In this document: piece by piece, positions 14,324 through 27,855 of the stretch | Layout of the letters: each line of letters starts with the position of its first letter | Position numbering within the stretch: the stretch's first letter is position 1 | Source of the DNA: Chlorobium sp. | Lineage (GTDB): Bacteria; Bacteroidota; Chlorobiia; Chlorobiales; Chlorobiaceae | Direction of reading: 5' to 3' | Assembly: GCA_005862225.1 (NCBI GenBank) | Contig: SZXV01000002.1 | Span: 248,001-312,000 of the forward strand | DNA length: 64,000 nt | The notes under the pieces: model-generated | The model's database searches: none | What the model was told of the DNA's origin: nothing | Seen by the model: the letters and a program-made list of their open reading frames with translations, nothing else | Translations under genes and position numbers: made by a program

Positions 14324-15661
14324 ATGCCATTTATAGTCAATACCGAAAACGAACGAAAGGAGATGCTCCGGACCATTGGTGTCAGCTCTTTTGATGATCT
14401 GATTGTCGATATTCCCGAAGAGATTCGCCTGAAAAAAGCCCTTGATATCCTCCCTGCCTCCGATGAGCCCCAGGTTCGCAAACTTCTTGAAAGCCTTGCC
14501 GCATCCAACCGGAACACCTCCGATTATGTGAGCTATCTTGGTGGCGGAGCCTACGACCATTTTATCCCTGCCGCCATTAAAACCATTACATCCCGCAGTG
14601 AATTTTATACGGCATATACCCCTTACCAGGCCGAGATCTCGCAAGGAACTCTTCAGGCAATTTATGAATACCAGAGCTTGATATGCCGTCTCTACGAGAT
14701 GGATGTCACCAACGCCTCCATGTATGATGGCGCGACCGCCCTTGCCGAAGCGGTACTGATGGCCATGAACGTCACTGGCCGGAGTCAGGTTGTGGTGGCA
14801 GGAAAGCTGCATCCCTGGAACAGCGCTGTACTCAAAACCTATCTTGAGGCATCAGGCCATAACGCCGTCATCCAGAATGTTCTTCAGGATGGTGTCGGCG
14901 ATAGTGCGGCGCTGAAAGAACTTGTTGGCGACAGTGTTGCCGCTGTGGTTGTTCAGCAGCCAAACTTTTACGGTTGCCTCGAAGATGTTGAAGCTCTTGG
15001 AGCGATTGCGCATGAAAATGGGGCGCTCTTTATTGTCTCAGCCGATCCGCTCTCGCTTGGCGTGCTGGCAGCTCCAGGCAGTTACGGCGCTGATATTGCT
15101 GTGGGAGAAGGACAGCCGCTTGGAACCCCCCAGAGTTTTGGCGGACCCTACCTCGGCATCTTTACCGTCAAGCAGCCGCTTGTCCGCAAAATTCCGGGAC
15201 GTCTGGTCGGCATGACGAAAGACCGTGATGGCGAGGATGGTTTTATTCTCACCCTTCAGACCCGTGAGCAGCACATCCGGCGCGAAAAAGCCACCTCAAA
15301 TATATGCAGCAACCAGGCGCTCAACGCCCTTCAGGCGGCACTCTATCTGTCGCTGCTCGGCAAAGAGGGGTTACAGCAGGTTGCCGCACAATCAACGCAG
15401 AAAGCACATTATCTTGCAGCGAAAATAGCCGCCATTCCGGGATTTTCCCTGAAGTACACGGCACCCTTTTTCCGGGAATTCGTTGTTGAAACACCAGTTC
15501 CAGCGGCGATTATTGTGGAGCGGATGCTGCAACACCAGATCTTTGCCGGGTACGATCTGGTGGCGCATGGCGAGAGCGGATTGCTTGTTGCCGTTACAGA
15601 GAAACGGACAAAAGAGGAGCTGGATGGTTTTGTAGAAAAGCTTGGGGAGATTGTCGGATAG
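14324..15661 (+). CDS. gcvPA: Glycine dehydrogenase (decarboxylating) subunit 1
   Basis: The 445-residue PLP-dependent protein corresponds to the N-terminal half of GcvP in the two-subunit form. Conserved stretches include [58 protein letters not shown] and the [20 protein letters not shown] region. It decarboxylates glycine with GcvPB and transfers the aminomethyl group to GcvH, encoded just upstream. GcvPB (the PLP-lysine subunit) and GcvT are not in the window; a hairpin and convergent dapA follow. Confidence 0.93.
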
Positions 15662-15673
15662 GCAGTGACGGAA

Positions 15674-15709
15674 CGTTTCAGCTCCCGGCGGAGGCAGGGA
15701 GCTGAAACG
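15674..15709. terminator. Hairpin between convergent gcvPA and dapA
   Basis: A perfect 13-bp inverted repeat (CGTTTCAGCTCCC/GGGAGCTGAAACG) with a 10-nt loop sits between the two stop codons. There is no T run after it, so termination is inferred from position. Confidence 0.5.
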
Positions 15710-15717
15710 GCATCGTA

Positions 15718-16608
15718 TTAAATGAGCCCCAGAGCGCTGAGTTCCTGATCGATAATCAGCTTGTTTGGCTCTGAAAGAGGCACAAGCGGCAGACGGTAGT
15801 TCTCCTCAATCATTCCCATTCGCGACAGCGCATACTTCACCGGCACCGGGTTACTCTCAATAAAGTTCATTTTTAACAGCTTGCGATAGCGGCCGTTGAT
15901 CGACCGTGCCTCCTCAAGATCGCCCCGCCTGACTGCCTCAATCAGTTGCTTGATCTGTGCTGGTATCTGGTTTGCCGCAACAGAAATCGCCCCGTCTCCA
16001 CCCATCGCCATAAAGGGCAGAATCAGCGAATCCTCGCCAGTCAGCACAGAAAAATGGGCAGGCCGCCCCTCAAGCAGCTCAGAGATCTGGCTGATATTTT
16101 CGGAAGCCTCCTTGACCGCCGCAATATTTTCAAAATCATGGGCAAGCCTGAGAATGGTTGATGCCGCAACATTGCAGCCGGTTCTTCCCGGAACATTGTA
16201 GATGATAATCGGCACCGAGACCGCTTCCGCGATATGACGGTAGTGTTGATAGATTCCCTCCTGTGAAGGCTTGTTGTAATAGGGAGAGACCGACAGAATG
16301 GCCGCCGCGCCAGCCTTTTCAGCATTTTTCGCCAGCTCAACCGCATGTCTTGTGTCATTGGTGCCAGCGCCCGCCGCCACCATTATCTTTCCCGCCGCCT
16401 CCTCCCTGACCGTGCGGATGATCTCAATCTGCTCATCACCGGAAAGTGTTGGCGATTCACCCGTTGTGCCACAGGTTATAATAATATCTGTTCCCGCCTC
16501 AATATGAAATTGCACCAGTCTCCTCAAGGCATAACGGTCTATTGACCCGTCCTTGCTGAACGGAGTCACCAGCGCAACGGCGGTTCCTGAAATGTATCGT
16601 GTGGACAT
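15718..16608 (-). CDS. dapA: 4-hydroxy-tetrahydrodipicolinate synthase
   Basis: The 296-residue TIM-barrel protein has the DapA motifs [33 protein letters not shown] (pyruvate-binding Thr-Thr), [14 protein letters not shown] (catalytic Tyr) and [10 protein letters not shown] (Schiff-base Lys). It condenses pyruvate with aspartate semialdehyde in the diaminopimelate/lysine pathway. dapF of the same pathway lies about 30 kb away at 47.0 kb. Length is standard and it is monocistronic here. Confidence 0.95.
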
Positions 16609-16962
16609 GCTTTTTTATCCCGGTAGTATTGAAAATCGTTTTGTTAACCCGGAGAACCTGAGCCCGGCTCTGTTATTGTTCCCGGCAAGAGTGAGAATAT
16701 ACAGAGAAAGGTAATTTGTAAAACCGATTTTCTTGCAAAAGAGTTCTAAAAAGTATTGCAGAGTTCCCGCTTGTGCTTATTGTCGCTGGCTTTCGCCCTG
16801 ATATCGGGCATGAATGTGCTGATCATCATCCCCAAAAAATGGAAATGAGAATTCCGAAAAACATCGATATTGCAGGCACCTGTTTTTTTGATTATACCAT
16901 AAAAATGCCGAATTTAGTCTCTATTCAGTCTTGCGATTACCTGTTTACGAAGAGGAGCCACA
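16609..16962. other. Intergenic region between dapA and the Phd/ParE pair
   Basis: No convincing gene is seen in this 354-nt divergent region. It must carry the dapA promoter and the toxin-antitoxin promoter/operator. No clear operator palindrome was recognised. It is also the left border of the accessory island. Confidence 0.5.
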
Positions 16963-17229
16963 ATGAAACTATCAGAAAGGGTTCGCCCGATTTCCTGGCT
17001 TAAATCTCATGCAGCCGAGATTGTAAGGGATTTTGAAGAGAATCGGAGCCCGCTTATTGTTACCCAGAATGGTGAAGCAAAAATGGTTGTTATGGACATT
17101 CGTACCTACGAAGAGCAGCTTGAAACCATGGCGTTTCTGAAACTCATCAACATGGGCAAAAAAGAGATTTCTGAAGGGAAATTCCAGAGTGTCGAGAATT
17201 TCTTTACTGACCTGGAAAAGGAGGGATAG
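16963..17229 (+). CDS. Antitoxin, Phd/YefM family
   Basis: This 88-residue protein has the Phd/YefM N-terminal DNA-binding fold (SERVRPISWLKSHAAEIVRD, then PLIVTQNGEAKMVVMDIRTY) and an acidic C-terminal tail that neutralises the toxin. The family represses its own operon with the toxin as co-repressor. The stop overlaps the GTG of the downstream ParE-like gene by one base, the usual coupled antitoxin-toxin order. It is the first gene of the accessory island. Confidence 0.9.
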   Translation: MKLSERVRPISWLKSHAAEIVRDFEENRSPLIVTQNGEAKMVVMDIRTYEEQLETMAFLKLINMGKKEISEGKFQSVENFFTDLEKEG

Positions 17230-17558
17230 TGGCGCATTCAGTTTTTATTCTTGACTCTGCGAAAGGTGATTATCGTGAAATCAGGAGCTATGTGCGGCAT
17301 AAATTTGGTGAAAAGGTCTGGAGAGAGTCGGAGCAACAATACAAAGAGGTTTTGAGCAATATCGGAGAGTTTCCTTTTGCCGGTTTTGTTGCTAAGGAGG
17401 CTGTTTCACTTGGCTTGCAAGGGATTCGCGAAAGGCTGGTTGGGCAAACAAGGGTTATTTATGAGGTTGGGGAGCATGAGGTTTATGTCTCCATGTTTGT
17501 CTCCACCCGTCGTGATTTCATGACCATGCTTACTGACCGGCTGCTTAAAAGTGAATAA
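17229..17558 (+). CDS. Toxin, ParE/RelE superfamily
   Basis: The 109-residue protein has the ParE/RelE pattern: AHSVFILDSAKGDYREIRSYV at the N terminus, then a central helix pair and RLVGQTRVIYEVGEHEVYVSMF strands near the C terminus. It starts at GTG 17229, overlapping the antitoxin stop. Family members poison gyrase (ParE) or cleave mRNA on ribosomes (RelE); which applies cannot be decided here. The large DGR target gene starts 58 nt downstream on the same strand, so read-through is possible. Confidence 0.88.
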   Translation: MAHSVFILDSAKGDYREIRSYVRHKFGEKVWRESEQQYKEVLSNIGEFPFAGFVAKEAVSLGLQGIRERLVGQTRVIYEVGEHEVYVSMFVSTRRDFMTMLTDRLLKSE

Positions 17559-17616
17559 CGGCAAGCTATTTCAACGATTATTGTTTTCTGGATGACTTTG
17601 ATTTACCAGATACGCT

Positions 17617-20600
17617 ATGGCTGATAATGGAATAACAAAAGTAAAAATACTTGTTGCCTCCCCCGGTGACGTTGACAGGGAGCGGCAGATTGTAGAGGAT
17701 GTGATAGGAGAGTGGAACATCCGCAATGGTGATGAGCGCAAGATGGTTCTCGAAGCGATACTGTGGGAAAAACATGCGGCGCCTGAAAACTGTGGAGATG
17801 GCGAGGGGCCTCAGGCGCCAATTACCCGCCAGATTGTTGATGATTGTGATTGTGCCATCGGGATTTTCTGGCATCGCATAGGAACACCAACAAAACTTGC
17901 TGAAGGTGGAGCAGTGGAAGAGGTGCAGAGAATGCTGACTGTGCTGAAGCGTCCGGTTATGCTCTATTTTTCGCGAATGCCGATTGCTCTGCATAAAGTT
18001 GATGGAGAACAGGTAAAAAAGCTTGAGGCATTCAAAACATTGATGAAAAAAGATGGATTGGTATGGGAATATGATAATCGGACGAAGTTTCGTACCCATC
18101 TTTCCCGCCACCTTGACAAGCAGATTCGCCAGTGGTTCTGCACTCCCGGTGCGCCAACCGTCAAGCAGTCCATACCAGAGGATGAGGAACTACGCCGCTA
18201 CCAGTCGGCGCTGAAAGAGGAGCTGGGCTACATCCGTATGCTTGGAATGCCCGGAGTTGAATCTGTCAAGGTCAATCTTGATGATGAGACCTTTGTGCCG
18301 TTACGGCTTTCTGACCGGCAGGATATGTTTTCCGGCCAGCCTGAAAAAGATTCTGGAAAGAGGCCCGAAGGAGGCGATCATACTCTCTATCCAGACGCTA
18401 TCATGAAGCGGGCGTTCCATGACCGTCGCCATCGCAGGATGCTTCTCGTTATCGGTGATCCCGGTGCAGGAAAAACAACGCTGCTCAAATATTATGCCCT
18501 TTGTGCGCTTGATTCGGAGAGATCCAGCCGACTTGGATTTTCCGGGCCGGTTAACGTCTTCTATCTGCCGCTGCGCGAGCTTGTCCGCCATGAGAATGGC
18601 CAGTACCACTCTCTTCCTGCAAATCTTGCGCTCTGGTTGGAGCGGAATCAGTTGCCCTTTACAGCAGAGCAGTTCGATCAATGGCTGCAGAGCGGAACAG
18701 CGCTTGTTTTGCTTGACGGGCTTGATGAAATCAGCAATACCGATGATCGAAAAGAGGTGTGCCGGTGGATTGATGCTGCCTGGAAAAGTTTTTCAGCGCT
18801 TCGTTTTGTGGTGACTTCCCGGGCAACAGGGTACCGCCAGGAAGAGGGTGTTGAACTTGCGGCTGATTTTGAACGAGCTGATGTTCAGGACTTTACGGTT
18901 GATCAGCAGGAGCTGTTTTTATTGCAATGGTTTACAGCCGCGTTTCTTAAAGAACCCTGTGACGTTGGTGTTGACGAAGCCGCCTGGCTGGCAAAACAAA
19001 AAGCAAAGGCTGAAGAGCGAACCCGTACCATTGCCAAACACCTGAAAGAGGAGAAGAACAAGGGGTTGCGGCAGCTTGCTGCCATCCCCATGATTCTGCA
19101 GATTATGGCGATTCTCTGGAAAGACCGGGACTATATGCCCGAGAGCCGGGTGAAGCTCTATGAGGCGGCTATTGATTACCTGCTTGAATTCAGGGACAAG
19201 CGCAGAGGGATAACCCCACTTGTTTCGGCCGTGCGTGCCCGTAAAGTGCTTGGGCCGGTCTCTCTGTGGATGCAGGAAGATCTGAAAAAAGATGAGGCCG
19301 AAAAGGAGTCCATGCAGGCAATCATGAAAGAACGCCTGGAGATTCTTGATCATCCCCCGTCAGTCGAGGCGTTCTGTGATTATATGGTGAAACGGGCAGG
19401 CTTGCTTGTGGAGTATGGTGGGGGCAAAGCTTACCTTTTTCGCCATAAATCATTGCGTGAATATCTGGCAGGCGTTCAGCTTGCCAAAAAAGTGAACAGA
19501 ACCCCCGACTCTCTGGATAATCTGGTTTCCGGCTTTGGTGATGACTGGTGGGAAGAGCCGATCAAATTCTTTATTGCCCAGGAAGATGAGGAGATATTTG
19601 ATCTGTTCATGGAAAAGCTGTTCGACTCTCCGGTCAGTGAAGAGCTGACACCAAAAAAGCAGTTCTTGCTGCAAACAATTATTGAAGAGGCGCCTGAAAA
19701 GAAGGTTGATGCGCTCTGTACAAAACTGCTTGACACGGCAACCACAGCCAGCCGTCAGCGGGTGATTCTCGACTGCCTGAAAACCATCGCGAAGCCTGCC
19801 GCACTTTCGGCGCTGGAGCAGTTCATTGCACAACAACTCGATAAAGAGAACGCAGAGAACAGTGATGTTATCGATCGTGCCGAAGAGGTGATTATCGCCC
19901 TCGGCGGAAAAGCGCTTGAACGTGCCACTGAAAAGAGTATCAGCGGTAAACCCTTGTCGATTCGCAACCCGAATGAGCAGAATGCCGAGTATATCCTGAT
20001 ACCGGGAGGCAACTACTGGTATTCGGCAATGAAAAAAACGCTGGATGTTGGTGATTGTTATGTTGCCAAGTATCCAGTGACGAACAAGCTTTACCGCTCA
20101 TTCATCAAGTGGTTGGAAGGAAAAGATTCAGGGAAGAACCATGCCTCATCATACAGGGCAGAACTGGAAAGGATAGCGCAGAGTAACGAATGGGGCCCGG
20201 GGTTTGGCGAGTATCTCAAGGGAGAAAGTGACCTTGCGGCATTGTTTCGTTCAGAAAATGATGAGGATCGCAAATTCGATGGGGATGATCAACCGGTGGT
20301 TGGCGTCACCTGGTATGCTGCCAGCGCCTACTGCCTGTGGCTTTCGATGCTGGAAGGCAAGGCCGCACGTTATCGTCTTGCTCATGAGATAGAGTGGGAG
20401 TGGGCTGCTGGAGGGAAACAGGGCACAATCGGGGAGAAAGTGCGGGAATATCCTTGGCCGGATGAGATGGGTGATGTGAATCCGAAATTGCTGAACTCTT
20501 ACGAAAGCAATATTCATGCCACAACACCAGTGGGCAGCTACCCTGAAGGCGCTACGCCAGAAGGGCTTTATGATATGGCGGGTAATGTCTGGGAGTGGTG

Positions 20601-20787
20601 CTGCGATTGGTATGGAGACGATGGCACTTTTGCCAATCCACTTGGGCCTGAAACTGGTTCTTACCGTGTGCTTCGTGGCGGGAGCTGGAACCTCATCGCC
20701 GAGATCTGTCGGTCGGCGAATCGCTACAGGTCCTCGCCCGACTACCGGAACTTCAACGTTGGCTTCCGCTTGGTCTTCGTCCCGTAG
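17617..20787 (+). CDS. DGR target 1: DUF4062-like, NACHT NTPase and variable FGE-sulfatase domain protein
   Basis: This 1056-residue protein has three parts. Residues about 1-115 look like DUF4062 (KILVASPGDVDRERQIVEDV, then IGIFWHRIGTPT). A NACHT-type STAND NTPase carries Walker A GDPGAGKTT at 280-288 and Walker B ALVLLDGLDE at 362-371, followed by a helical region. From about 785 to the end lies an FGE-sulfatase (C-type-lectin-like) domain. Its last 43 residues (1014-1056) are encoded by VR1. Eight of the eleven template Asn codons are changed here, giving among others Y1016, L1026, I1027, I1030, Y1037, S1039, Y1043 and F1046. Inference: a switch-type sensor whose ligand-binding face is hypermutated. 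No membrane segment was seen. Confidence 0.88.
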   Translation: MADNGITKVKILVASPGDVDRERQIVEDVIGEWNIRNGDERKMVLEAILWEKHAAPENCGDGEGPQAPITRQIVDDCDCAIGIFWHRIGTPTKLAEGGAVEEVQRMLTVLKRPVMLYFSRMPIALHKVDGEQVKKLEAFKTLMKKDGLVWEYDNRTKFRTHLSRHLDKQIRQWFCTPGAPTVKQSIPEDEELRRYQSALKEELGYIRMLGMPGVESVKVNLDDETFVPLRLSDRQDMFSGQPEKDSGKRPEGGDHTLYPDAIMKRAFHDRRHRRMLLVIGDPGAGKTTLLKYYALCALDSERSSRLGFSGPVNVFYLPLRELVRHENGQYHSLPANLALWLERNQLPFTAEQFDQWLQSGTALVLLDGLDEISNTDDRKEVCRWIDAAWKSFSALRFVVTSRATGYRQEEGVELAADFERADVQDFTVDQQELFLLQWFTAAFLKEPCDVGVDEAAWLAKQKAKAEERTRTIAKHLKEEKNKGLRQLAAIPMILQIMAILWKDRDYMPESRVKLYEAAIDYLLEFRDKRRGITPLVSAVRARKVLGPVSLWMQEDLKKDEAEKESMQAIMKERLEILDHPPSVEAFCDYMVKRAGLLVEYGGGKAYLFRHKSLREYLAGVQLAKKVNRTPDSLDNLVSGFGDDWWEEPIKFFIAQEDEEIFDLFMEKLFDSPVSEELTPKKQFLLQTIIEEAPEKKVDALCTKLLDTATTASRQRVILDCLKTIAKPAALSALEQFIAQQLDKENAENSDVIDRAEEVIIALGGKALERATEKSISGKPLSIRNPNEQNAEYILIPGGNYWYSAMKKTLDVGDCYVAKYPVTNKLYRSFIKWLEGKDSGKNHASSYRAELERIAQSNEWGPGFGEYLKGESDLAALFRSENDEDRKFDGDDQPVVGVTWYAASAYCLWLSMLEGKAARYRLAHEIEWEWAAGGKQGTIGEKVREYPWPDEMGDVNPKLLNSYESNIHATTPVGSYPEGATPEGLYDMAGNVWEWCCDWYGDDGTFANPLGPETGSYRVLRGGSWNLIAEICRSANRYRSSPDYRNFNVGFRLVFVP
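20656..20787 (+). repeat. DGR variable repeat 1 (VR1)
   Basis: This 132-bp segment matches the template repeat at 22451-22582 without gaps. Fifteen positions differ: 13 are template adenines (A to T, C or G), and two near the 5' edge (G to T at 20661, T to C at 20671) are not. The 3' 28 nt are invariant, consistent with an initiation-of-mutagenic-homing zone. It ends exactly at the stop codon of target 1. Confidence 0.95.
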
Positions 20788-20942
20788 TTCGGGGGCAGTT
20801 TTCCGGCTTTGCTTTTGAGCTATGCGGAGCAAAGAACAAGGTTGAGGTGCGCAGCAGCGAGGGACGCGCTGCGGCGCACCTCAACCGGGCAGCTTGGCAC
20901 GAACCACAGAAAATGCCGCCGAAGGCGGCCGACCGATATTTT
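20788..20942 (+). repeat. VR-associated structured flank, copy 1
   Basis: This 155-nt segment begins at the base after the VR1 stop and is about 95% identical to 24080-24234 behind VR2. It contains a hairpin CTTTGCT/AGCAAAG (20807-20834). It also holds a very stable hairpin of 13 bp (20840-20852 with 20874-20886) extended by an inner 6-bp stem (20854-20859 with 20867-20872), and a GCCGCC-gaa-GGCGGC hairpin near its end. Post-VR hairpins are known to promote homing in the Bordetella phage DGR; such a role here is inference. It has no coding potential. Confidence 0.85.
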
Positions 20943-20995
20943 GAAAACGTGAGGATATCACTCAGAGTTACCCCACAGCGTACTGTTTTACCACC

Positions 20996-21457
20996 ATGCA
21001 GATAAAACTGTTTACCATACCCGTCGGTGATAGTGGCGCAGCCCAGCAGGAGATGAACGCCTTTCTGAAGGCGCATAAAATACTGGAAATCGAGCAAAAG
21101 CTGATTAGCAACGACAACGGGGCGTACTGGTGTTTTTGTGTTCGTTACATCGAGACCGCTTTCAACATCGCGTCAGAAAGCAAAGCCAGGGTTGATTATC
21201 GCCAGGTGCTTGATGAGCCAACCTTTCAGAAGTTTACGCATTTGCGTGCCATAAGAAAACAGGCGGCGGCTGCCGAAGGGCTGCCGGCATTTATTGTGTT
21301 TACCGACGAAGAGCTTGCCGAACTTGCAAAACTGGAGGAGATAACCATCAAGAGCATGTTGGGGATAAAAGGAATTGGCGACAAAAAGGTTGAGCGTTAT
21401 GCTCACTATTTTACTGCAAAACCAGAATCCAATGAAGCGACGGGGGCAGTTGCTTGA
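20996..21457 (+). CDS. DGR accessory protein with HRDC-like domain
   Basis: This 153-residue protein sits where DGRs usually carry the accessory gene. Residues about 95-145 look like an HRDC (helicase and RNase D C-terminal) domain: FIVFTDEELAELAKL, then MLGIKGIGDKKVERYAHYF. The N-terminal half has no family I recognise. HRDC-domain genes are known to replace avd in a subset of DGRs, where they probably help the reverse transcriptase bind template RNA or target DNA. Its 3' end overlaps the RT start by 26 nt, so the two are coupled. Confidence 0.8.
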   Translation: MQIKLFTIPVGDSGAAQQEMNAFLKAHKILEIEQKLISNDNGAYWCFCVRYIETAFNIASESKARVDYRQVLDEPTFQKFTHLRAIRKQAAAAEGLPAFIVFTDEELAELAKLEEITIKSMLGIKGIGDKKVERYAHYFTAKPESNEATGAVA

Positions 21458-22436
21458 ACAGATTGCTGATCTGAATAATCTGTACGAAGCTTTTTACAAG
21501 GCGCAAAAAGGCAAGCACTCCAAGCCTTATGTTTGCGCCTACAGAGAGCAGTTGGAGGAAAATTTGCAGATATTACGCCATCAGATTACTTCGGGCGCGG
21601 TTGAGACGGGCAATTATCACACATTCATCATCTATGATCCGAAAAAACGCCTGATTTGCGCTACCCCTTTTGCGCAACGAGTTCTGCATCATGCACTCAT
21701 GAATGTCTGCCATGCCTCTTTTGAGAAACATCAGATCGCAGGCAGTTTTGCAAGCCGTTCCGGCAAAGGCACCTATGCCGCTCTTGACCAGGCAAGGCAG
21801 TATAATCAACGCTATCGCTGGTTTTTAAAACTCGACGTTCGCAAATATTTTGAGAGCATTGATCATGCAATCCTGAAACGGCAGCTTCATCGTCTGTTCA
21901 AAGACCCGCCACTGCTGCGGCTTTTTGAGCAGATTATTGAAAGCTACTCCACCGCAGAGCATAAAAGCCTTCCGATTGGCAACCTGACCAGCCAGTATTT
22001 TGCGAACCACTATCTCTCTGTGGCTGACCATGACGTTATAAGGGTATTACAGGTTCCGGCCTACGTTCGCTACATGGACGATATGGTGTTGTGGCATCAT
22101 GATAAAGAGGCGCTGCTGGCGACAGGCTACAGGTTTCAGGAGTTTCTTGCAAAAGAGTTGCTGCTTGAGCTGAAACCCTTTTGCCTGAACAAAAACAAAA
22201 AAGGGTTGTCGTTTCTGGGATATCTGCTCTACAAAGAGAAAGTACGGCTTGCCCCGCGAAGCAAAAAACGCTTTCTTGCAACATCCCTGCTTTATGACGG
22301 CTACCTGCAAACCGGGCTGTGGTCACAAAAGGCGTTCGCAAACCACGCGATGCCGTTGGTTGCCTTTACCGAATACGCCAATGCAAGAGAATTCAGAAAA
22401 AATGTGTACCGTACAGTGGTGGCCAGTGAAGAATAA
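21432..22436 (+). CDS. DGR reverse transcriptase
   Basis: This 334-residue reverse transcriptase shows DGR-type motifs. The N terminus [11 protein letters not shown]...[12 protein letters not shown] is typical, the catalytic YMDD lies at residues 214-217, and IGNLTSQ at 182-188 replaces the motif-4 sequence of group II intron RTs. It lacks maturase and endonuclease domains. It makes cDNA from the template RNA with errors at adenines and, with the accessory protein, replaces VR sequence. ATG at 21432 was chosen by family start; in-frame upstream codons to 21375 overlap the HRDC gene further. The TR begins 14 nt after its stop. Confidence 0.95.
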
Positions 22437-22450
22437 GGGCATCAGTCGTG

Positions 22451-22582
22451 GGTTCGAACCGTGTGTTTCGTGGCGGGAGCTGGAACAACAACGCCGAGAA
22501 CTGTCGGTCGGCGAATCGCAACAGGAACACGCCCGACAACCGGAACAACAACATTGGCTTCCGCTTGGTCTTCGTCCCGTAG
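22451..22582 (+). repeat. DGR template repeat (TR)
   Basis: This 132-bp segment matches both VRs. Read in the VR frame it holds 11 AAC codons, clustered where the VRs differ: S-N-R, then [20 protein letters not shown]. It has 31 adenines; 13 are changed in VR1 and 18 in VR2. AAC cannot mutate to a stop by changes at its two adenines, so diversification never truncates the targets. It lies directly downstream of the RT and is not itself in a real gene. It is probably transcribed as a non-coding RNA with or after the RT message. Confidence 0.95.
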
Positions 22583-22595
22583 CTCAAAAGCAAAG
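22581..22595. repeat. 15-nt inverted match between TR flank and VR flanks
   Basis: AGCTCAAAAGCAAAG, overlapping the last two TR bases, is the exact reverse complement of 20807-20821 and 24099-24113 in the VR flanks. There the same segment forms the first arm and loop of a hairpin. It is the only part of the 155-nt VR flank found beside the TR, and it is inverted. Confidence 0.85.
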
Positions 22596-22792
22596 TCGGA
22601 TGACTGCCTCTGAACAGATTGATGACCCTGTCCCTGATTCTGTCAGGGCAAAGAGCGCCACACACGATGCCCGGCATTGGTAGGACGAGCCGGATAGCCG
22701 TTTCGAAGATGACGGGCATATTTTTTTGAAAAAAGAAACGTTAACTTTCGCTTCAATCGACGTATGCCGCAACCATTAAAAAGAGCGTGACC

Positions 22793-24079
22793 ATGGACGA
22801 ACAGACACCTCCACAATCTGCTTCACCGTCAACACGGGTTGATGAGCTTGACAAAGCCTTTGTAGCAGACCTCATTGAGCAGCCAAAACAGCTTGATAAA
22901 CTTGCCAGACTGGTGCTCATCTTCAGCTTTGTGGTGCCAGTGCTTTATGCCATTGGGTTAAAGTTCTTTTCGAGTTCTGAGTCTGCGCCAAGCGGTCTAT
23001 GGTTTATTGTTGCGGCATTCGCGAGCTGGTTTGTGTCGCTGTTGTTGAGCCTGTTTGGTCTCATCTCCGGAAAAGGGAGGCAGAATGCAGGAGGCAAAGA
23101 AAAATCGGTCAGCGTTGAGGCGCTCTATCAGGCAATCATTCGCTATAAACGGCGAATGCTCATCGGCTCCAGTATCTTCTGTTTTCTTGGCGTTTGCTTT
23201 GCAGGGCTCACTGTTTTCAGCAACGCTTTCCCAACGATGCTGCCAAATCAGGCGCCTCAAAACTTTGTTCTGATACGAGGTGGCGAATTTACGATGGGAA
23301 GCCCTGAGAATGAAGTTGGTCATCAACCGAATGAGACACAGCATCAGGTGAAAGTAAGTGATTATTATATGAGCAAATATGAGGTGACTTTTGCTGAGTT
23401 CAAGCGCTTTATTGCAGAGTCACACTATCTGACAGATGCGGAAAAGGATAGCAAGGATAACGGGAGCTGGATTTTGGATGGTAACGAGGCGAAAAAAGTA
23501 GCGGGAGTCAACTGGCGTCATGGAGTTTCAGGCAAAGAGCGGACACCGGCTGAAGCCAATCATCCGGTGGTTCATGTGAGTTGGAATGATGCCATTGCCT
23601 ATTGCCAGTGGCTGTCGGAAAAAACCGGAAAGTGGTACCGGCTTCCGACCGAAGCGGAGTGGGAATATGCCTGCCGGGCTGGTAGTCGCACACCGTTCAA
23701 TACCGGTGAGAACCTGACTACAGCGCAGGCGAACTACGACGGCAATTATCCATATAACAATAACCGGAAAGGTCAGTATCGGGCGAAGACTGTTGCTGTT
23801 GAGAGTTTTGCTCCGAATAGATTTGGGTTGTATAACATGCATGGCAATGTGTGGGAGTGGTGTGATGATGTGTATGGAGAGAAGTATTATGATGAGTGCA
23901 AGGCGAAGGGTCTTGTTGAAAACCCTGCCGGGCCAGCGCCTGAAACCGGTTCGTTCCGTGTGTTTCGTGGCGGGAGCTGGCGCATCATCGCCGAGCCCTG
24001 TCGGTCGGCGAATCGCGGCGGGAGCACGCCCGGCCACCGGGACGGCATCATTGGCTTCCGCTTGGTCTTCGTCCCGTAG
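22793..24079 (+). CDS. DGR target 2: membrane-anchored FGE-sulfatase protein with variable C terminus
   Basis: This protein of about 428 residues has three hydrophobic segments near residues 37-60, 68-92 and 120-146. A C-terminal FGE-sulfatase/C-type-lectin-like domain follows from about 155 (FVLIRGGEFTMGSPENE, YYMSKYEVTFAEFKRF, WYRLPTEAEWEYACRAG, GNVWEWC). The last 43 residues (386-428) come from VR2. All 11 template Asn codons are changed here, giving F388, R397, I398, I399, P402, G409, S411, H415, D417, G418 and I419. Three membrane segments place the variable domain on one face of the membrane, likely outside the cytoplasm (inference). ATG 22793 is preferred to GTG 22787. Confidence 0.9.
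   Translation: MDEQTPPQSASPSTRVDELDKAFVADLIEQPKQLDKLARLVLIFSFVVPVLYAIGLKFFSSSESAPSGLWFIVAAFASWFVSLLLSLFGLISGKGRQNAGGKEKSVSVEALYQAIIRYKRRMLIGSSIFCFLGVCFAGLTVFSNAFPTMLPNQAPQNFVLIRGGEFTMGSPENEVGHQPNETQHQVKVSDYYMSKYEVTFAEFKRFIAESHYLTDAEKDSKDNGSWILDGNEAKKVAGVNWRHGVSGKERTPAEANHPVVHVSWNDAIAYCQWLSEKTGKWYRLPTEAEWEYACRAGSRTPFNTGENLTTAQANYDGNYPYNNNRKGQYRAKTVAVESFAPNRFGLYNMHGNVWEWCDDVYGEKYYDECKAKGLVENPAGPAPETGSFRVFRGGSWRIIAEPCRSANRGGSTPGHRDGIIGFRLVFVP
23948..24079 (+). repeat. DGR variable repeat 2 (VR2)
   Basis: This 132-bp segment matches the TR without gaps. All 18 differences fall on template adenines: seven A to T, seven A to G and four others to C. No non-adenine position differs, which suggests recent homing from this TR. 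It ends at the stop codon of target 2. Confidence 0.95.
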
Positions 24080-24234
24080 TTCAGGGGTAGTTTTCCGGCT
24101 TTGCTTTTGAGCTATGCGGAGCAAAGAACAAGGTTGAGGAGAGCAGCAGCGAGGGACGCGCTGCGGCGCACCTCAACCGAGCAGGTGGGCACGAACCACA
24201 GAAAATGCCGCCGAAGGCGGCCGACCGATATTTT
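24080..24234 (+). repeat. VR-associated structured flank, copy 2
   Basis: This second copy of the 155-nt segment behind VR1 differs at about seven positions. The 7-bp hairpin (24099-24126) and the GC-rich GAA-loop hairpin are intact. The large hairpin has two changes in its left arm (GGTGCGC to GGAGAGC) that weaken it. The rest of the gap to the Trypco2 gene (24235-24506) shows no gene and probably holds that gene's promoter. Confidence 0.85.
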
Positions 24235-24506
24235 TTAAAAGCTTTTCAAGATTCAGCGCAAGTCGTATGAGGGGGTAGTCATGCGCAATTGAAAGCCATT
24301 AAGAGCTGTCACAAGGCACGGATTACTTTTGAAATGGCGAATTTATTGGTATTGTTTAAGGAGGTTTTTGGCTCTGAAGATAACCGATCCCGGTCATGCG
24401 TGTTGATGGAGTTGTGGTCAAGACCTCAATCTTGAAGCTTTTTGGTTTTCCCGCACAGAGGTGTTTAACTTGTTAACCACAGGCTTATAAACAGGAGTAT
24501 TCGGTC

Positions 24507-25040
24507 ATGGATAATTCGGAATCGAAATTTGGCGAGGACGAAGAAGGTCTTACTATTCTTGGCGCTCTTGCACAACTTAAGGCGGATATCTTCAAGCTTC
24601 AAAGTAAAAACCTGGAAGAAAATACTGAGCCTCTCTTTCTGATAGAAGGAGGAGAAATTGAACTCAAGCTTGTTGCAAAAAAGGATGTCAAAGCCGAGGC
24701 AAAAGGATTGACAAAATTTAAGCTGGTTTTGGCTGGCGGAGAAGCAGGCGGAAGTATTGGCGGAAGCACCTCGCACGAATATTTGCAGACCATCAAAATT
24801 AAGTTCAGCGCATTAATGCCGACACAAAAAGATACATCTCCAGATGTTTCTCCTGGGTCGTTACCGTTGACGTACCCAACGCATTTTTCGCCGACGATAT
24901 CGCCAAGCGTAAAATCGAAATGGAGTGTGTCGCCTATTGTTGATTGGACTGATGTTGTTGTGCAGGACATTAAATTGCCTCAAGTTGAAATATGGCCGAA
25001 AGGATCACTATTCATCCATAAGGATTACTGCGAGCCTTGA
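24507..25040 (+). CDS. Trypco2-domain protein
   Basis: Residues about 12-100 of this 177-residue protein match the Trypco2 (trypsin-co-occurring domain 2) pattern. A helix LGALAQLKADIFKL is followed by strands IEGGEIELKLVAKKDVKAEA and KFKLVLAGGEAGGS, then the conserved S-T-S-H-E segment before a final strand. The Pro/Ser-rich C-terminal part (about 105-177) is not recognised. In published surveys this domain occurs in NTP-dependent conflict systems with trypsin-like proteases, none of which is adjacent here. It lies 430 nt downstream of DGR target 2 on the same strand; a functional link is inference. Confidence 0.7.
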   Translation: MDNSESKFGEDEEGLTILGALAQLKADIFKLQSKNLEENTEPLFLIEGGEIELKLVAKKDVKAEAKGLTKFKLVLAGGEAGGSIGGSTSHEYLQTIKIKFSALMPTQKDTSPDVSPGSLPLTYPTHFSPTISPSVKSKWSVSPIVDWTDVVVQDIKLPQVEIWPKGSLFIHKDYCEP

Positions 25041-25270
25041 GTTGTGGGGCTGAACAGGTCAGAAATTTTCTTTCAGTTCCAAAAAAGCAACAACTGATAA
25101 TCTTTTTTTGCGAGCACTGCTCCTTTCATGAGGAGCAAGCGATTACGAAGCACTATTCGAAATTGATAATGAGGGCATCATCACCAGTCTGGTTGGCCAG
25201 CAGCAGCGGGAAGAGGCTGATGACGGAGTGGGTCTAATTCATCAACAGGCACAATTTGGGAGCATGACGA

Positions 25271-26725
25271 TTGTTTGAGCAGACATTCAAGAATATTGAC
25301 GATATCCTCCACAAAGACGCAGGCTGCGGCAGTGAGCTTGACTACATTGAGCAGACCTCGTGGATACTTTTTCTCAAGTACCTTGACGACCTTGAAAAGG
25401 AGAAGCAGATCGCGGCGGAGCTCTCCGGCAAACCATACATCCCGCTGCTGAGCCCATATTACCGCTGGGAGTCGTGGGCAGCGCCAAAAACCGCCGATGG
25501 CAAGATTGACCATAACCAGGCGGCGACTGGCGATGATCTCAAGGATTTTGTTGACCGCGAGCTTTTTCCCTACCTGAAAACCTTCAAAACCTCGGCGGAG
25601 AGCTCCGCCACCATTCAGTACAAGATTGGCGAGATCTTCAGCGAGCTGAAAAATCGTGTCCAGAGCGGCTACAACCTGCGTGAAGTGATCAACCGGATTG
25701 ATGAACTCCGTTTTCGTACCAATGCTGAAAAGCATGAGATGAGCCATCTCTACGAGAGCAAAATCAAAAACATGGGCAACGCCGGGCGCAACGGAGGCGA
25801 ATACTACACCCCGCGCCCGCTCATCAAAGCCATTGTCAGGGTTGTCGCTCCTGTTATCGGTCAGAAAATCTACGATGGCGCCGTCGGTTCAGCGGGCTTC
25901 CTCGCCGAAGCTTATGAGTACCTGAAGACAAGCAAGAGCCTTACCACCGGCGATATGGAGATGCTGCAGAAAAGCACCTTTTATGGCAAGGAGAAGAAGG
26001 GGCTGGCCTACATCATCGGCATCATGAACATGATTCTGCATGGCGTTGAAGCGCCAAACATTGTGCATACCAACACCCTCGCCGAAAACCTTGCCGACAT
26101 TCAGGAGCGCGACCGGTTCGACATCATCATTGCCAATCCGCCCTTCGGAGGCAAAGAGCGGGCCGAGGTGCAGCAGAACTTCCCCATCAAGTCGGGAGAG
26201 ACCGCCTTTCTCTTTCTCCAGCACTTCATCAAAATTCTCAAAGCTGGCGGCAGGGCCGGTGTGGTCATCAAAAACACCTTTCTCTCCAATACCGACAACG
26301 CCTCCGTCAGCCTTCGCAAGCTTCTGCTCGAAAGCAGCACCCTGCACACCGTGCTCGACTGTCCCGGCGGCACCTTTCAGGGCGCGGGCGTCAAAACCGT
26401 GGTGCTTTTTTTCGAGAAGGGCGCGCCGACAAAGAGGATCTGGTACTACCAGCTCGACCCCGGTCGCAACCTCGGCAAAACCAACCCGCTGAACGACAAC
26501 GATCTGGCGGATTTCGTTGAGTTGCAGAAAAGCCGCGCCGATTCAGCAAAATCGTGGAGCCTGAGCATGGCAGACGTTGACCGCACAACGTGGGATCTTT
26601 CGGTCAAGAATCCCAACAGTGGCGGGGAGGTGGCGCATCGCACGCCGCAGGATATTATGGAGGAGATTGCTGCGCTGGATGCGGAGAGCGCGGGGGTGCT
26701 GGAGAAGATTCGGGGGCTGTTATGA
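25271..26725 (+). CDS. hsdM: Type I restriction-modification system, methyltransferase subunit
   Basis: This 484-residue protein has the HsdM N-terminal helical domain (FKNIDDILHKDAGCGSELDY, EQTSWILFLKYLDDLEKEK). The N6-adenine methyltransferase core follows, with YDGAVGSAGFLAEAYEYL as SAM motif I and IIIANPPFGGKERAE as the catalytic NPPF motif. It methylates the hemimethylated site chosen by HsdS. The start is TTG at 25271 with GGGAG upstream. The 230 nt before it contain an unrecognised reading frame ending at 25276 (FEIDNEGIITSLVGQQQREE), possibly a gene remnant. The stop overlaps hsdS by 4 nt. Confidence 0.93.
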   Translation: MFEQTFKNIDDILHKDAGCGSELDYIEQTSWILFLKYLDDLEKEKQIAAELSGKPYIPLLSPYYRWESWAAPKTADGKIDHNQAATGDDLKDFVDRELFPYLKTFKTSAESSATIQYKIGEIFSELKNRVQSGYNLREVINRIDELRFRTNAEKHEMSHLYESKIKNMGNAGRNGGEYYTPRPLIKAIVRVVAPVIGQKIYDGAVGSAGFLAEAYEYLKTSKSLTTGDMEMLQKSTFYGKEKKGLAYIIGIMNMILHGVEAPNIVHTNTLAENLADIQERDRFDIIIANPPFGGKERAEVQQNFPIKSGETAFLFLQHFIKILKAGGRAGVVIKNTFLSNTDNASVSLRKLLLESSTLHTVLDCPGGTFQGAGVKTVVLFFEKGAPTKRIWYYQLDPGRNLGKTNPLNDNDLADFVELQKSRADSAKSWSLSMADVDRTTWDLSVKNPNSGGEVAHRTPQDIMEEIAALDAESAGVLEKIRGLL

Positions 26726-27855
26726 AGGCTGGATGGGCAATGAAGAGGCTGAATGAAGTCTGTCAAATTAAACCACCCAAGGCCGAAGCCCGTAAAAGGA
26801 TTTCTACTGATACGTTGGTATCCTTTGTGCCGATGGAAGATTTGGGTATTGAGCAAAAATTCTTCAATGCTGTTCAGAAAAAACCGTTATCCGTTGTTTC
26901 AGGCAGTTATACATACTTTGCAGATGGAGATGTACTTCTTGCAAAGATAACGCCCTGTTTTGAAAATGGAAAACTTGGGATTGCTGGTGCTCTTACCAAT
27001 GGGATCGGATTTGGTTCAAGTGAGTACATTGTGTTCCGATCGGATGGGCGATTAAGAAATGAATGGCTCTATTACTATTTGTCCCGTGAAAGTTTTCGAG
27101 TTGAGGGGGCGAAATTGATGTCAGGGGCAGTTGGTCATAAACGTGTTCCGAAAGAGTTTATCGAAAACTATTTGATTCCCGTTCCCCCACTTCCTGAACA
27201 GCAGCGCATCGTCGCTCTGCTCGACGAAGCATTCGCGGCGATTGCCACCGCCAAAGCGAACGCCGAAAAGAATCTCAAAAATGCCCGTGCGCTTTTTGAC
27301 TCGTATTTGAATTATGATTATGGAGCCAATGCTTTTCTTGGGGATTTAGTACAAATTAAAACAGGTAAATTAGATGCCAATGCGGCAGAAGCAAATGGCA
27401 GATATCCATTTTTTACTTGTTCGCGTGAAGTGTATTCAATCAATAATTATGCTTTTGATTGTGAGGCCATTCTTTTAGCGGGCAATAATGCTGTTGGAGA
27501 TTTCAATGTCAAACACTATAAGGGAAGGTTTAATGCCTATCAGCGAACTTATGTGATCACGGTGAATGAAAAGCAACTTATCCTTTATCGTTTTCTATAT
27601 TTCCATCTATTAAAAAGCTTAAAAACGTTCAAAGAACAGTCTGTTGGTGTTGGGACAAAATTTTTGAAGCTTGGGATGATACAGAATTTGAAAATTGCGT
27701 TACCTCCACTTGCTGACCAGCAACAAATCGTTACAAAACTCGATGCTCTGAGTGAGGAAACACAGCTCCTTGAATCCATCTACCAGAAAAAAATCACCAC
27801 CTTGGATGCTCTGAAAAAATCCATCCTGCACCAGGCTTTCACAGGGGAGTTGTGA
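26722..27855 (+). CDS. hsdS: Type I restriction-modification system, specificity subunit
   Basis: This 377-residue protein has two target-recognition domains, each followed by a coiled-coil spacer: PVPPLPEQQRIVALLDEAFAA in the middle and LPPLADQQQIVTKLDALSEE near the end. Each recognition domain reads one half of a bipartite site; the specificity is not readable. The ATG overlaps the hsdM stop as ATGA. The base composition of the recognition domains is visibly more AT-rich than the conserved spacers and hsdM, as expected of rapidly exchanged modules. Confidence 0.92.
   Translation: MKAGWAMKRLNEVCQIKPPKAEARKRISTDTLVSFVPMEDLGIEQKFFNAVQKKPLSVVSGSYTYFADGDVLLAKITPCFENGKLGIAGALTNGIGFGSSEYIVFRSDGRLRNEWLYYYLSRESFRVEGAKLMSGAVGHKRVPKEFIENYLIPVPPLPEQQRIVALLDEAFAAIATAKANAEKNLKNARALFDSYLNYDYGANAFLGDLVQIKTGKLDANAAEANGRYPFFTCSREVYSINNYAFDCEAILLAGNNAVGDFNVKHYKGRFNAYQRTYVITVNEKQLILYRFLYFHLLKSLKTFKEQSVGVGTKFLKLGMIQNLKIALPPLADQQQIVTKLDALSEETQLLESIYQKKITTLDALKKSILHQAFTGEL

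Follow-up and report, generated by a model that had tools for sequence, protein, structure and literature searches.

The diversity-generating retroelement (DGR) of Bordetella phage BPP-1, an Avd-type element, combines a reverse transcriptase (RT) bearing YMDD and SQ motifs with adenine changes between its template repeat (TR) and variable repeat (VR), a 3′ spacer RNA and a hairpin behind the VR, while its direction depends on a 21-bp element with five VR/TR mismatches (PMC3240598, PMC12875486). Its cDNA is described as being RNA-primed from its own spacer, and the integration of DGR cDNA into the target was still called mysterious in a 2026 study (PMC12875486). In the clade 5 DGRs of Thiohalocapsa PB-PSB1, FGE/CLec targets are joined to NACHT and further conflict-system modules, and trans targets, RT-less loci and a Trypco2-type neighbour are present as well (PMC10907252). 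DGRs with more than one VR have been listed for green sulfur bacteria, with two in Chlorobium phaeobacteroides DSM 266 and four in Pelodictyon phaeoclathratiforme BU-1 (PMC3521204), and in the HRDC DGR of Treponema denticola the accessory gene overlaps the RT (PMC4891356).

We analysed a 64,000-nucleotide stretch of a Chlorobium sp. genome (the window) whose DGR shares with BPP-1 the RT motifs, the adenine changes, the 3′ spacer RNA and a hairpin behind the VR, and with each of the other systems the features just named. It departs from BPP-1 in carrying HRDC in place of Avd and in having an inverted flank where BPP-1 has its mismatched 21-bp element, and, compared by description, from T. denticola, where the accessory gene sits between TR and RT. 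The Thiohalocapsa elements, likened here by features, are presented without mention of an inverted spacer mark in the available portions of that report, and the Chlorobi elements are listed as multi-VR cassettes, with no such flank analysis in the parts of that paper at hand. No earlier description of this mark was found in the literature searched.

Results

The element in the window is an HRDC-type DGR, of a known kind (Table 1). Among solved structures its RT best matches chain 8ub7_A (E 9.6e-39), and alignment with this chain bears out the original prediction of a DGR-type enzyme with YMDD and SQ (IGNLTSQ) motifs. RTs at least 68% identical to it all belong to Chlorobiaceae, followed by Saprospiraceae at 62%, in agreement with a clean-signature DGR hosted in Chlorobiaceae. 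The accessory gene, previously called HRDC-like, has an HRDC domain as its sole Pfam match (E 2.5e-14), and no Avd accessory was found by Pfam. Its protein is predicted to have a beta-alpha-beta-beta N-terminal part, for which the model gave no firm Foldseek match, followed by a RecQ-type HRDC domain; the three Foldseek matches at E ≤0.001 are all HRDC domains (BLM, RecQ). FGE-sulfatase domains (Pfam) lie at the C-terminal end of both targets, as predicted, each with its VR at the 3′ end, and the translation of target 2 begins with hydrophobic stretches. An Rfam scan of 15000–27000 returned two chance-level matches, both below gathering scores, and a sigma-70 scan found promoter-like sites no more often than chance (5 found, 7.3 expected).

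Table 1. Features of the DGR cassette in the window, in window coordinates.
Feature	Coordinates	Strand	Description
Target 1	17617..20787	+	1056 aa; C-terminal FGE domain, ends in VR1
Target 1, N-terminal region			PADLOC PDC-S60 match, residues 9-172
Target 1, further domain			NACHT NTPase (Pfam)
VR1	20656..20787	+	15 differences from TR, 13 at TR adenines
Xrc behind VR1	20788..20819	+	Inverted copy of TR spacer nt 1-32, 27/32
Hairpin behind VR1 mark	20840..20886	+	13+6 bp, 7-nt loop
Short GC hairpin	20915..20929	+	GCCGCC-GAA-GGCGGC, 3′ of target 1
HRDC accessory gene	20996..21457	+	26-nt overlap with RT
DGR reverse transcriptase	21432..22436	+	334 aa; YMDD, IGNLTSQ
TR	22451..22582	+	132 bp, 31 adenines
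X	22583..22614	+	First 32 nt of TR-RNA spacer, directly 3′ of TR
Structured TR-RNA 3′ spacer	22583..22727	+	Predicted helix 22632-22648, closing helix 22667-22719, then T run
Target 2	22793..24079	+	FGE domain, ends in VR2
VR2	23948..24079	+	18 differences from TR, 18/18 at adenines; gapless
Xrc behind VR2	24080..24111	+	27/32
Hairpin behind VR2 mark	24132..24178	+	

Realignment reproduced the gapless 132-bp matches of the TR to VR1 and VR2 at the coordinates first proposed, and the adenine bias likewise stood, with a probability of 5e-8 for VR1 and 3e-14 for VR2 that this many differences would land on adenines by chance. The two non-adenine differences of VR1, noted before near its 5′ edge, are G6T and T16C. 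TR adenines fall in 18 sense codons, none of which (0/18) can mutate to a stop. Across species, comparing every VR with whichever TR of its own locus gave the fewest non-adenine changes and leaving out VRs without an open reading frame ending at the repeat, 644 changes lie at TR adenines versus 82 at non-adenine sites or gaps. The VR1 gene differs from two of its orthologues (72–73% identical) at 16/31 and 22/31 adenine sites and at 10/101 and 14/101 other VR sites; these differences are partly due to TR differences between species. The last 29 bp are identical in TR, VR1 and VR2, with no difference past position 103, and no difference between IMH and IMH* inside the repeat, the BPP-1 criterion, was found between the TR and VR1 or VR2.

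Searching the TR against the whole genome of this Chlorobium recovered three more VR-like repeats outside the window cassette: VR3 (16/21 differences from the TR at adenines), in a TIR–FGE gene about 100 kb away; VR4 (18/22), in an FGE gene on a different contig; and VR5, a decayed repeat of 72% identity. The earlier two-target description therefore holds for the cassette but not for the genome, where VR3 and VR4 are additional and seemingly served in trans, and the DGR appears, from these repeats, to serve four sensor-like genes. Conflict-system modules are fused to target 1 (NACHT) and to the VR3 gene (TIR), relatives' targets carry caspase or metallophosphatase–NACHT, and target 2 and the VR4 gene have FGE only among the domains detected. 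Both VR3 and VR4 differ from the window TR at position 115, sharing the states C16, T93 and C115; since C115 is the usual TR state, present in 21 of 23 full-RT TRs with the window TR as one of the two exceptions, the window TR probably changed after their last writing. Solo TRs were also considered as a new class of non-autonomous DGR, an idea dropped because loci that lack an RT and are served in trans had been reported before (PMC10907252).

Directly 3′ of VR1–VR4 stands the reverse complement of X (Xrc), matching at 27, 27, 27 and 28 of 32 nt, respectively. Its exact 17-nt core occurs at only five sites in the genome, namely behind VR1–VR4 and, inverted, behind the TR; in the window, Xrc comes right after the stop codon and ahead of the hairpins. 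This inverted spacer mark, absent from the original prediction, is the most informative feature of the locus. A palindromic X was ruled out as the source of the likeness (direct 14.9 versus inverted 29.1, n = 38). A hairpin local to Xrc (GCTC...GAGC) is predicted in the Chlorobiaceae alignment and, by eye, is missing from many Bacteroidota flanks; nor can the 32-nt mark be read as a local hairpin, because its partner sits behind the TR. The consensus structure predicted for the TR spacer has X nt 1–12 unpaired. The stem of the hairpin behind the VR1 mark varies in sequence among relatives with its pairing kept, and against the BPP-1 criterion (7–10-bp stem, GRNA loop, 4–34 bp away) this hairpin is larger, has a 7-nt loop and starts 53 nt behind VR1, counted from the VR end.

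HRDC-type DGRs of Chlorobi, Bacteroidota and Nitrosomonas carry the mark as well. Taking the best pair per locus by score, 55 of 64 HRDC-lineage loci beat all 300 dinucleotide shuffles and nine did not; it was not found in three viral HRDC loci. None of 64 Avd-type viral loci exceeded all shuffles (two scored within 3 of 300), nor did any of eight pairs in six second-type Chlorobi loci, two controls that rule out a general pipeline artefact. The BPP-1 flank itself is marginal (1 of 300 shuffles, 8 of 300 in another run), its match gapped and out of register. Among HRDC-lineage loci the register is fixed: in most pairs the first nucleotide past the VR is the start of Xrc, and the matching end abuts the TR end.

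Flank and spacer also change together. In pairs picked blind to complementarity, cognate combinations scored 34.5 versus 17.6 for non-cognate ones (RT identity <60%, n = 22), a value reached in 0 of 5000 permutations (maximum 23.5), and the cognate flank had the top score of all in 12/22. A 13-nt junction block is matched at 13/13 positions in 33 of 57 loci, comprising 20 different blocks, and one of its sites shows all four bases with a match of 1.00. Exact 10-mers are shared by 27/38 cognate pairs, against fractions of 0.032 for non-cognate and 0.003 for shuffled ones.

Flank orientation goes with the state of the repeat: mean template-adenine retention is 0.45 in Xrc-flanked (inverted) repeats (n = 98) and 0.92 in X-flanked (direct) repeats (n = 40). 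Exceptions occur on both sides, with low retention in X-flanked repeats of L189 (0.50), L233 (0.36) and L083 (0.77) and high retention in Xrc-flanked repeats of L178 (0.95), L075 (0.73) and L182 (0.73). In two loci of a second Chlorobiaceae genus (L077 and L078), four VRs look recently active (0–1 non-adenine changes), and pairing of their flanks with X is confined to nt 11–32, leaving the TR-adjacent block unmatched, so this block is not always needed.

Discussion

The sequences themselves show the marks, the coevolution of the two partners and the association between flank type and a repeat's state as template or target, and X–Xrc pairing is strongly supported by these comparisons. We think it probable that the HRDC-type DGR diversifies the C-terminal FGE (C-type lectin) ends of four apparently sensor-like proteins and that X/Xrc pairing marks its targets, with priming as the most likely use. 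Judging from the mutation pattern, the RT would make its errors at adenines as it copies TR RNA, and the resulting cDNA would overwrite VRs in cis and in trans. With the ends of TR, VR1 and VR2 identical, the repeats themselves would not tell template from target; a template would be recognizable as TR followed by X, a target as VR followed by Xrc and a hairpin. X of the TR RNA, or its cDNA, would base-pair with the target Xrc, where nicking, or stalling at the hairpin, might leave a sense-strand 3′ end. The 3′ end of Xrc, annealed to X with its end against the TR, would then most likely prime reverse transcription, yielding VR–Xrc–cDNA on one strand that could fold back on the VR. In vivo pairing, nick or stall, priming and fold-back are all steps that we infer. 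Priming of retrohoming by the target flank would be a departure from BPP-1, whose cDNA is RNA-primed (PMC12875486). More tentatively, and at less than even confidence, we suggest for HRDC-type DGRs generally that a target sense strand ending in Xrc is a built-in primer that anneals to TR RNA for extension by the RT, that the mutated cDNA is covalently joined to the gene and folds back over it, and that the orientation of 32 nt sets template versus target.

Several other readings deserve weighing. An ordinary two-target DGR whose sole target signal is the customary hairpin behind the VR would account for the DGR hallmarks and for the hairpin behind each window VR, but the genome holds two more VRs and the partner of the 32-nt mark sits behind the TR; we consider it very improbable indeed. 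Inverted copies are able to convert each other, and X and Xrc might be remnants of an ancient inverted duplication whose halves gene conversion has kept similar, without a role in homing. That the mark's function is read from sequence alone speaks for such remnants; yet 20 different blocks are fully complementary, the register is fixed at both borders, flank type is linked to template or target state, and the mark follows trans targets and is absent from the rest of the genome, and we give the idea hardly any credence.

The pairing might also act at another step. If the cDNA were self-primed from the TR-RNA spacer through X, its 5′ Xrc end could anneal to the target flank on the bottom strand and hold the cDNA there, as a tether after synthesis and not as a primer. 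The coevolution evidence fits this equally well, and RNA priming has been reported in BPP-1 (PMC12875486), but a tether would not require the best match to lie at the TR-abutting end, where it is seen in most loci, and simultaneous pairing with both strands would probably be geometrically awkward; we regard it as unlikely. Pairing between RNAs, in which Xrc in the 3′ UTR of the target mRNA binds X of the TR RNA and either brings the ribonucleoprotein to transcribed targets or regulates RNA, draws on the position of the window Xrc behind the stop codon and before the hairpins, where it would be transcribed. Homing would then need target transcription, yet in BPP-1 target transcription differing by orders of magnitude had only a mild effect (PMC12875486), and we hold RNA–RNA pairing to be very unlikely.

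Under the preferred reading, in which X/Xrc pairing marks the target and most likely primes, a flipped copy of the TR-adjacent sequence may tell the machinery where to write. A coevolving handshake between template and target makes the integration question directly testable, since it comes down to two short sequences to break and restore. With the mark as a sequence rule, it also becomes possible to look for trans targets, which by its own account a contig-based survey would overlook (PMC8144416), and a DGR could be directed to a gene of choice.

A retroelement with targets inside and probably outside its cassette

Realignment bore out the positions and difference counts of the original prediction for the template repeat (TR) and two variable repeats (VR1, VR2), as well as the adenine-specific signature, with 18 of 18 differences in VR2 (chance 3e-14) and 13 of 15 in VR1 (5e-8) falling at TR adenines. 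The reverse transcriptase (RT), the HRDC accessory and the two FGE-ended targets of the cassette were all confirmed, and the nearest relatives of this RT are Chlorobiaceae RTs, which places the organism in that family. Of the 18 sense codons of the TR that contain A, none can become a stop by mutation, and the number of protein variants allowed is about 10^17.6. Toxin-antitoxin, Trypco2-like and hsdM/hsdS-like genes give the cassette a defence-like neighbourhood.

Using the TR as a query against the whole genome (13 contigs, 99.96% complete), we found six TR-like places: the TR, VR1, VR2 and three others. The predicted pair of targets thus holds for the cassette and not genome-wide; the search adds the VR3 and VR4 genes and therefore yields four plausible targets by sequence, two of these in trans. 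Differences from the TR lie at A in 16 of 21 (VR3) and 18 of 22 cases (VR4), and the translated VR3 gene has a hydrophobic stretch between TIR and FGE. VR3 and VR4 both carry C16, T93 and C115, unlike the window TR; relatives' TRs usually have C115, which would fit a template that changed after the two VRs were last written. A long GC-rich palindromic stretch (GCTTCGATACGGCC...) lies in or beside the hairpin position behind some VRs.

Coordinates of the repeats, neighbouring genes and solo TRs (window unless a contig, C, or compared locus, L, is named)
Feature	Location	Remark
Phd/ParE-type toxin-antitoxin pair	16963-17558	upstream of cassette
VR1	20656-20787	ends NACHT-FGE gene (target 1)
TR	22451-22582	
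X	22583-22614	32 nt directly 3' of TR
VR2	23948-24079	ends FGE gene (target 2)
Weak Trypco2-like gene	24507-25040	downstream of cassette; just below Pfam cut-off
Type I restriction-modification hsdM/hsdS-like genes	25271-27855	downstream of cassette
VR3	C4:168101-168230; L007 7100-7231	ends gene with TIR and FGE domains
VR4	C3:58572-58703; L008 6573-6704	minus strand; ends FGE gene
Second DGR (L092)	around C4:534950-540484	
GC-rich palindromic stretch	L008 6423-6572	VR4 flank
GC-rich palindromic stretch	L192, L198	
Nearly unmutated target	L178 251-532	
Solo TR	L058 8003-8098	
Solo TR	L064 6418	
Solo TR	L082 2030-2376	
Solo TR	L087 94-640	
Solo TR	L083, L084, L086, L089, L090	

Across the family, 59 of 86 genomes gave an RT hit at E 1e-3, a count that takes in distant RTs. 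VR-TR changes around close RTs number 644 at adenines versus 82 elsewhere, gaps included; each VR was compared with the same-locus TR giving the fewest non-A changes, and only VRs at which an ORF ends were counted. Two orthologues of target 1, with 72-73% identity, show differences at 16 and 22 of the 31 A sites, partly through between-species TR differences, and at 10 and 14 of the 101 remaining VR sites. Relatives' targets carry NACHT, metallophosphatase-NACHT, caspase or zinc-ribbon modules N-terminal to the FGE domain, resembling the antigen-sensor proposal in the accessible text of PMC10907252. One relative (G083) has a large repertoire: its genome of about 3.3 Mb contains 20 TR/VR-like repeats.

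An inverted copy of the template spacer behind the variable repeats

The reverse complement of X, Xrc (hereafter the mark), lies directly 3' of VR1-VR4, matching at 27, 27, 27 and 28 of 32 nt, and the exact 17-nt core is present at five sites in 2.5 Mb: after each of VR1-VR4 and, in inverted form, after the TR. The X/Xrc duplex, an RNA-RNA proxy, reaches -58.9 kcal/mol (500 simple shuffles: mean -16.3, minimum -29.0). A hairpin follows Xrc; its stem varies among relatives, with changes in both arms that preserve pairing at 6 of the 11 pairs predicted from the flank alignment. The spacer behind the TR has a predicted closing helix and T run; its consensus shows compensatory changes in 8 of 31 predicted pairs and leaves X nt 1-12 unpaired. 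The remaining repeat, VR5, is 72% identical to the TR, retains just 9 nt of the mark and appears to be decayed. L092, another DGR in this genome, lacks the inverted mark; its RT is 41% identical to the window RT and has its own TR upstream, and in its two FGE targets 14 of 14 and 16 of 16 differences fall at A.

Distribution of the mark

We surveyed 81 loci: 79 found by RT in named genomes, L092 and the Bordetella phage BPP-1 DGR (L176). A-biased repeat pairs occurred in 69, and 55 of the 66 with flanks exceeded all 300 shuffles in X/Xrc match, taking the best-scoring pair per locus; excluding L092 and BPP-1 makes it 55 of 64, and each of these 64 loci contains an HRDC-like gene. The L092 score was reached by 72 of 300 shuffles and that of BPP-1, whose match is gapped and out of register, by 1 of 300. 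The mark extends to Saprospiraceae, Bacteroidales and a Nitrosomonas.

In a coevolution test that instead picked pairs by number of A changes, cognate versus non-cognate flanks scored 37.3/20.4 (n=58), 37.2/18.5 (n=38) and 34.5/17.6 (n=22) at RT identities below 90, 70 and 60%, with maxima over 5000 permutations of 24.2, 22.8 and 23.5; the cognate flank topped its own row in 28/58, 23/38 and 12/22. Per-position X/Xrc identity comes from local alignments and is hence inflated. An ungapped 13-nt junction block, for which the best placement is likewise picked, matched at 13/13 in 33 of 57 loci (20 different blocks), and the cognate match over 41 distinct block pairs was 0.927; reshuffling gave 0.614 on average and 0.681 at most.

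None of 64 Avd-type viral loci went beyond all shuffles (mean 16.7 versus null 15.6), two scoring within 3 of 300 shuffles; nor did any of eight pairs from six second-type Chlorobi loci, seven of them distinct because L010 and L092 are the same locus. Three viral HRDC loci averaged 20.7 against 15.6 and, like 9 of the 64 HRDC-lineage loci, did not exceed all shuffles; on these comparisons the mark is therefore the property of a lineage and not of all HRDC DGRs. In a second Chlorobiaceae genus (L077, L078), the flanks of VRs with 0-1 non-A changes show only partial complementarity, within X nt 11-32, without a match to the block adjoining the TR. There the repeat closes with CAG instead of a stop codon; the reading frame of the target appears to continue into the flank, and the partial mark would then be coding.

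Flank type and repeat state

Among 147 classified repeats from 25 Chlorobiaceae genomes, the mean share of 22 shared TR adenines retained was 0.92 with X (n=40), 0.45 with Xrc (n=98) and 0.41 with neither flank (n=9). X-flanked exceptions are L189 (0.50, X degenerate), L083 (0.77), L066 and L086 (both 0.82), and L233 (0.36), perhaps a VR x TR recombinant because the stretch before its repeat reads as an out-of-frame NACHT gene. Xrc-flanked exceptions are L075 and L182 (both 0.73) and L178 (0.95), an in-frame target that is perhaps newly made or not yet diversified.

In several loci a TR stands behind an RT remnant with internal deletions instead of a full RT. At one (L064), three VRs match the solo TR with 1, 0 and 0 non-A changes, and the TR that follows the full RT aligns with them only in part. 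Repeats behind RT remnants in L085 and L091 carry VR-type flanks, and their differences from the TR fall largely at adenines.

A possible role in template-target recognition

Multi-VR Chlorobi DGRs, HRDC accessories, FGE targets, trans targets and post-VR hairpins are already described in the accessible texts of PMC3521204, PMC4891356, PMC10907252 and PMC3240598. Searches of the freely accessible journal literature on DGRs, some aimed at such a pairing, returned no description of a TR-spacer copy lying inverted behind VRs.

On this sequence evidence the mark is best explained as a template-target handshake, because it is complementary to the TR spacer, ends at the TR start in most loci, precedes a hairpin and tracks repeat state. 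Against this reading stand the partial marks of L077 and L078 and the HRDC loci, viral ones included, that do not exceed all shuffles. The main rival is that the mark tethers cDNA that has primed itself. The genome's five VR-like genes are all oriented along positive local GC skew, taken as the leading-strand direction; BPP-1 homes better in E. coli when its target has this co-directional arrangement (PMC12875486), but with five sites the observation is weak. In phage BPP-1 itself, inverting the target was without effect (PMC3240598). Since the best-matching end of the mark abuts the TR, the leading reading is priming, in which the target's sense strand, ending in Xrc, would prime on the template RNA.
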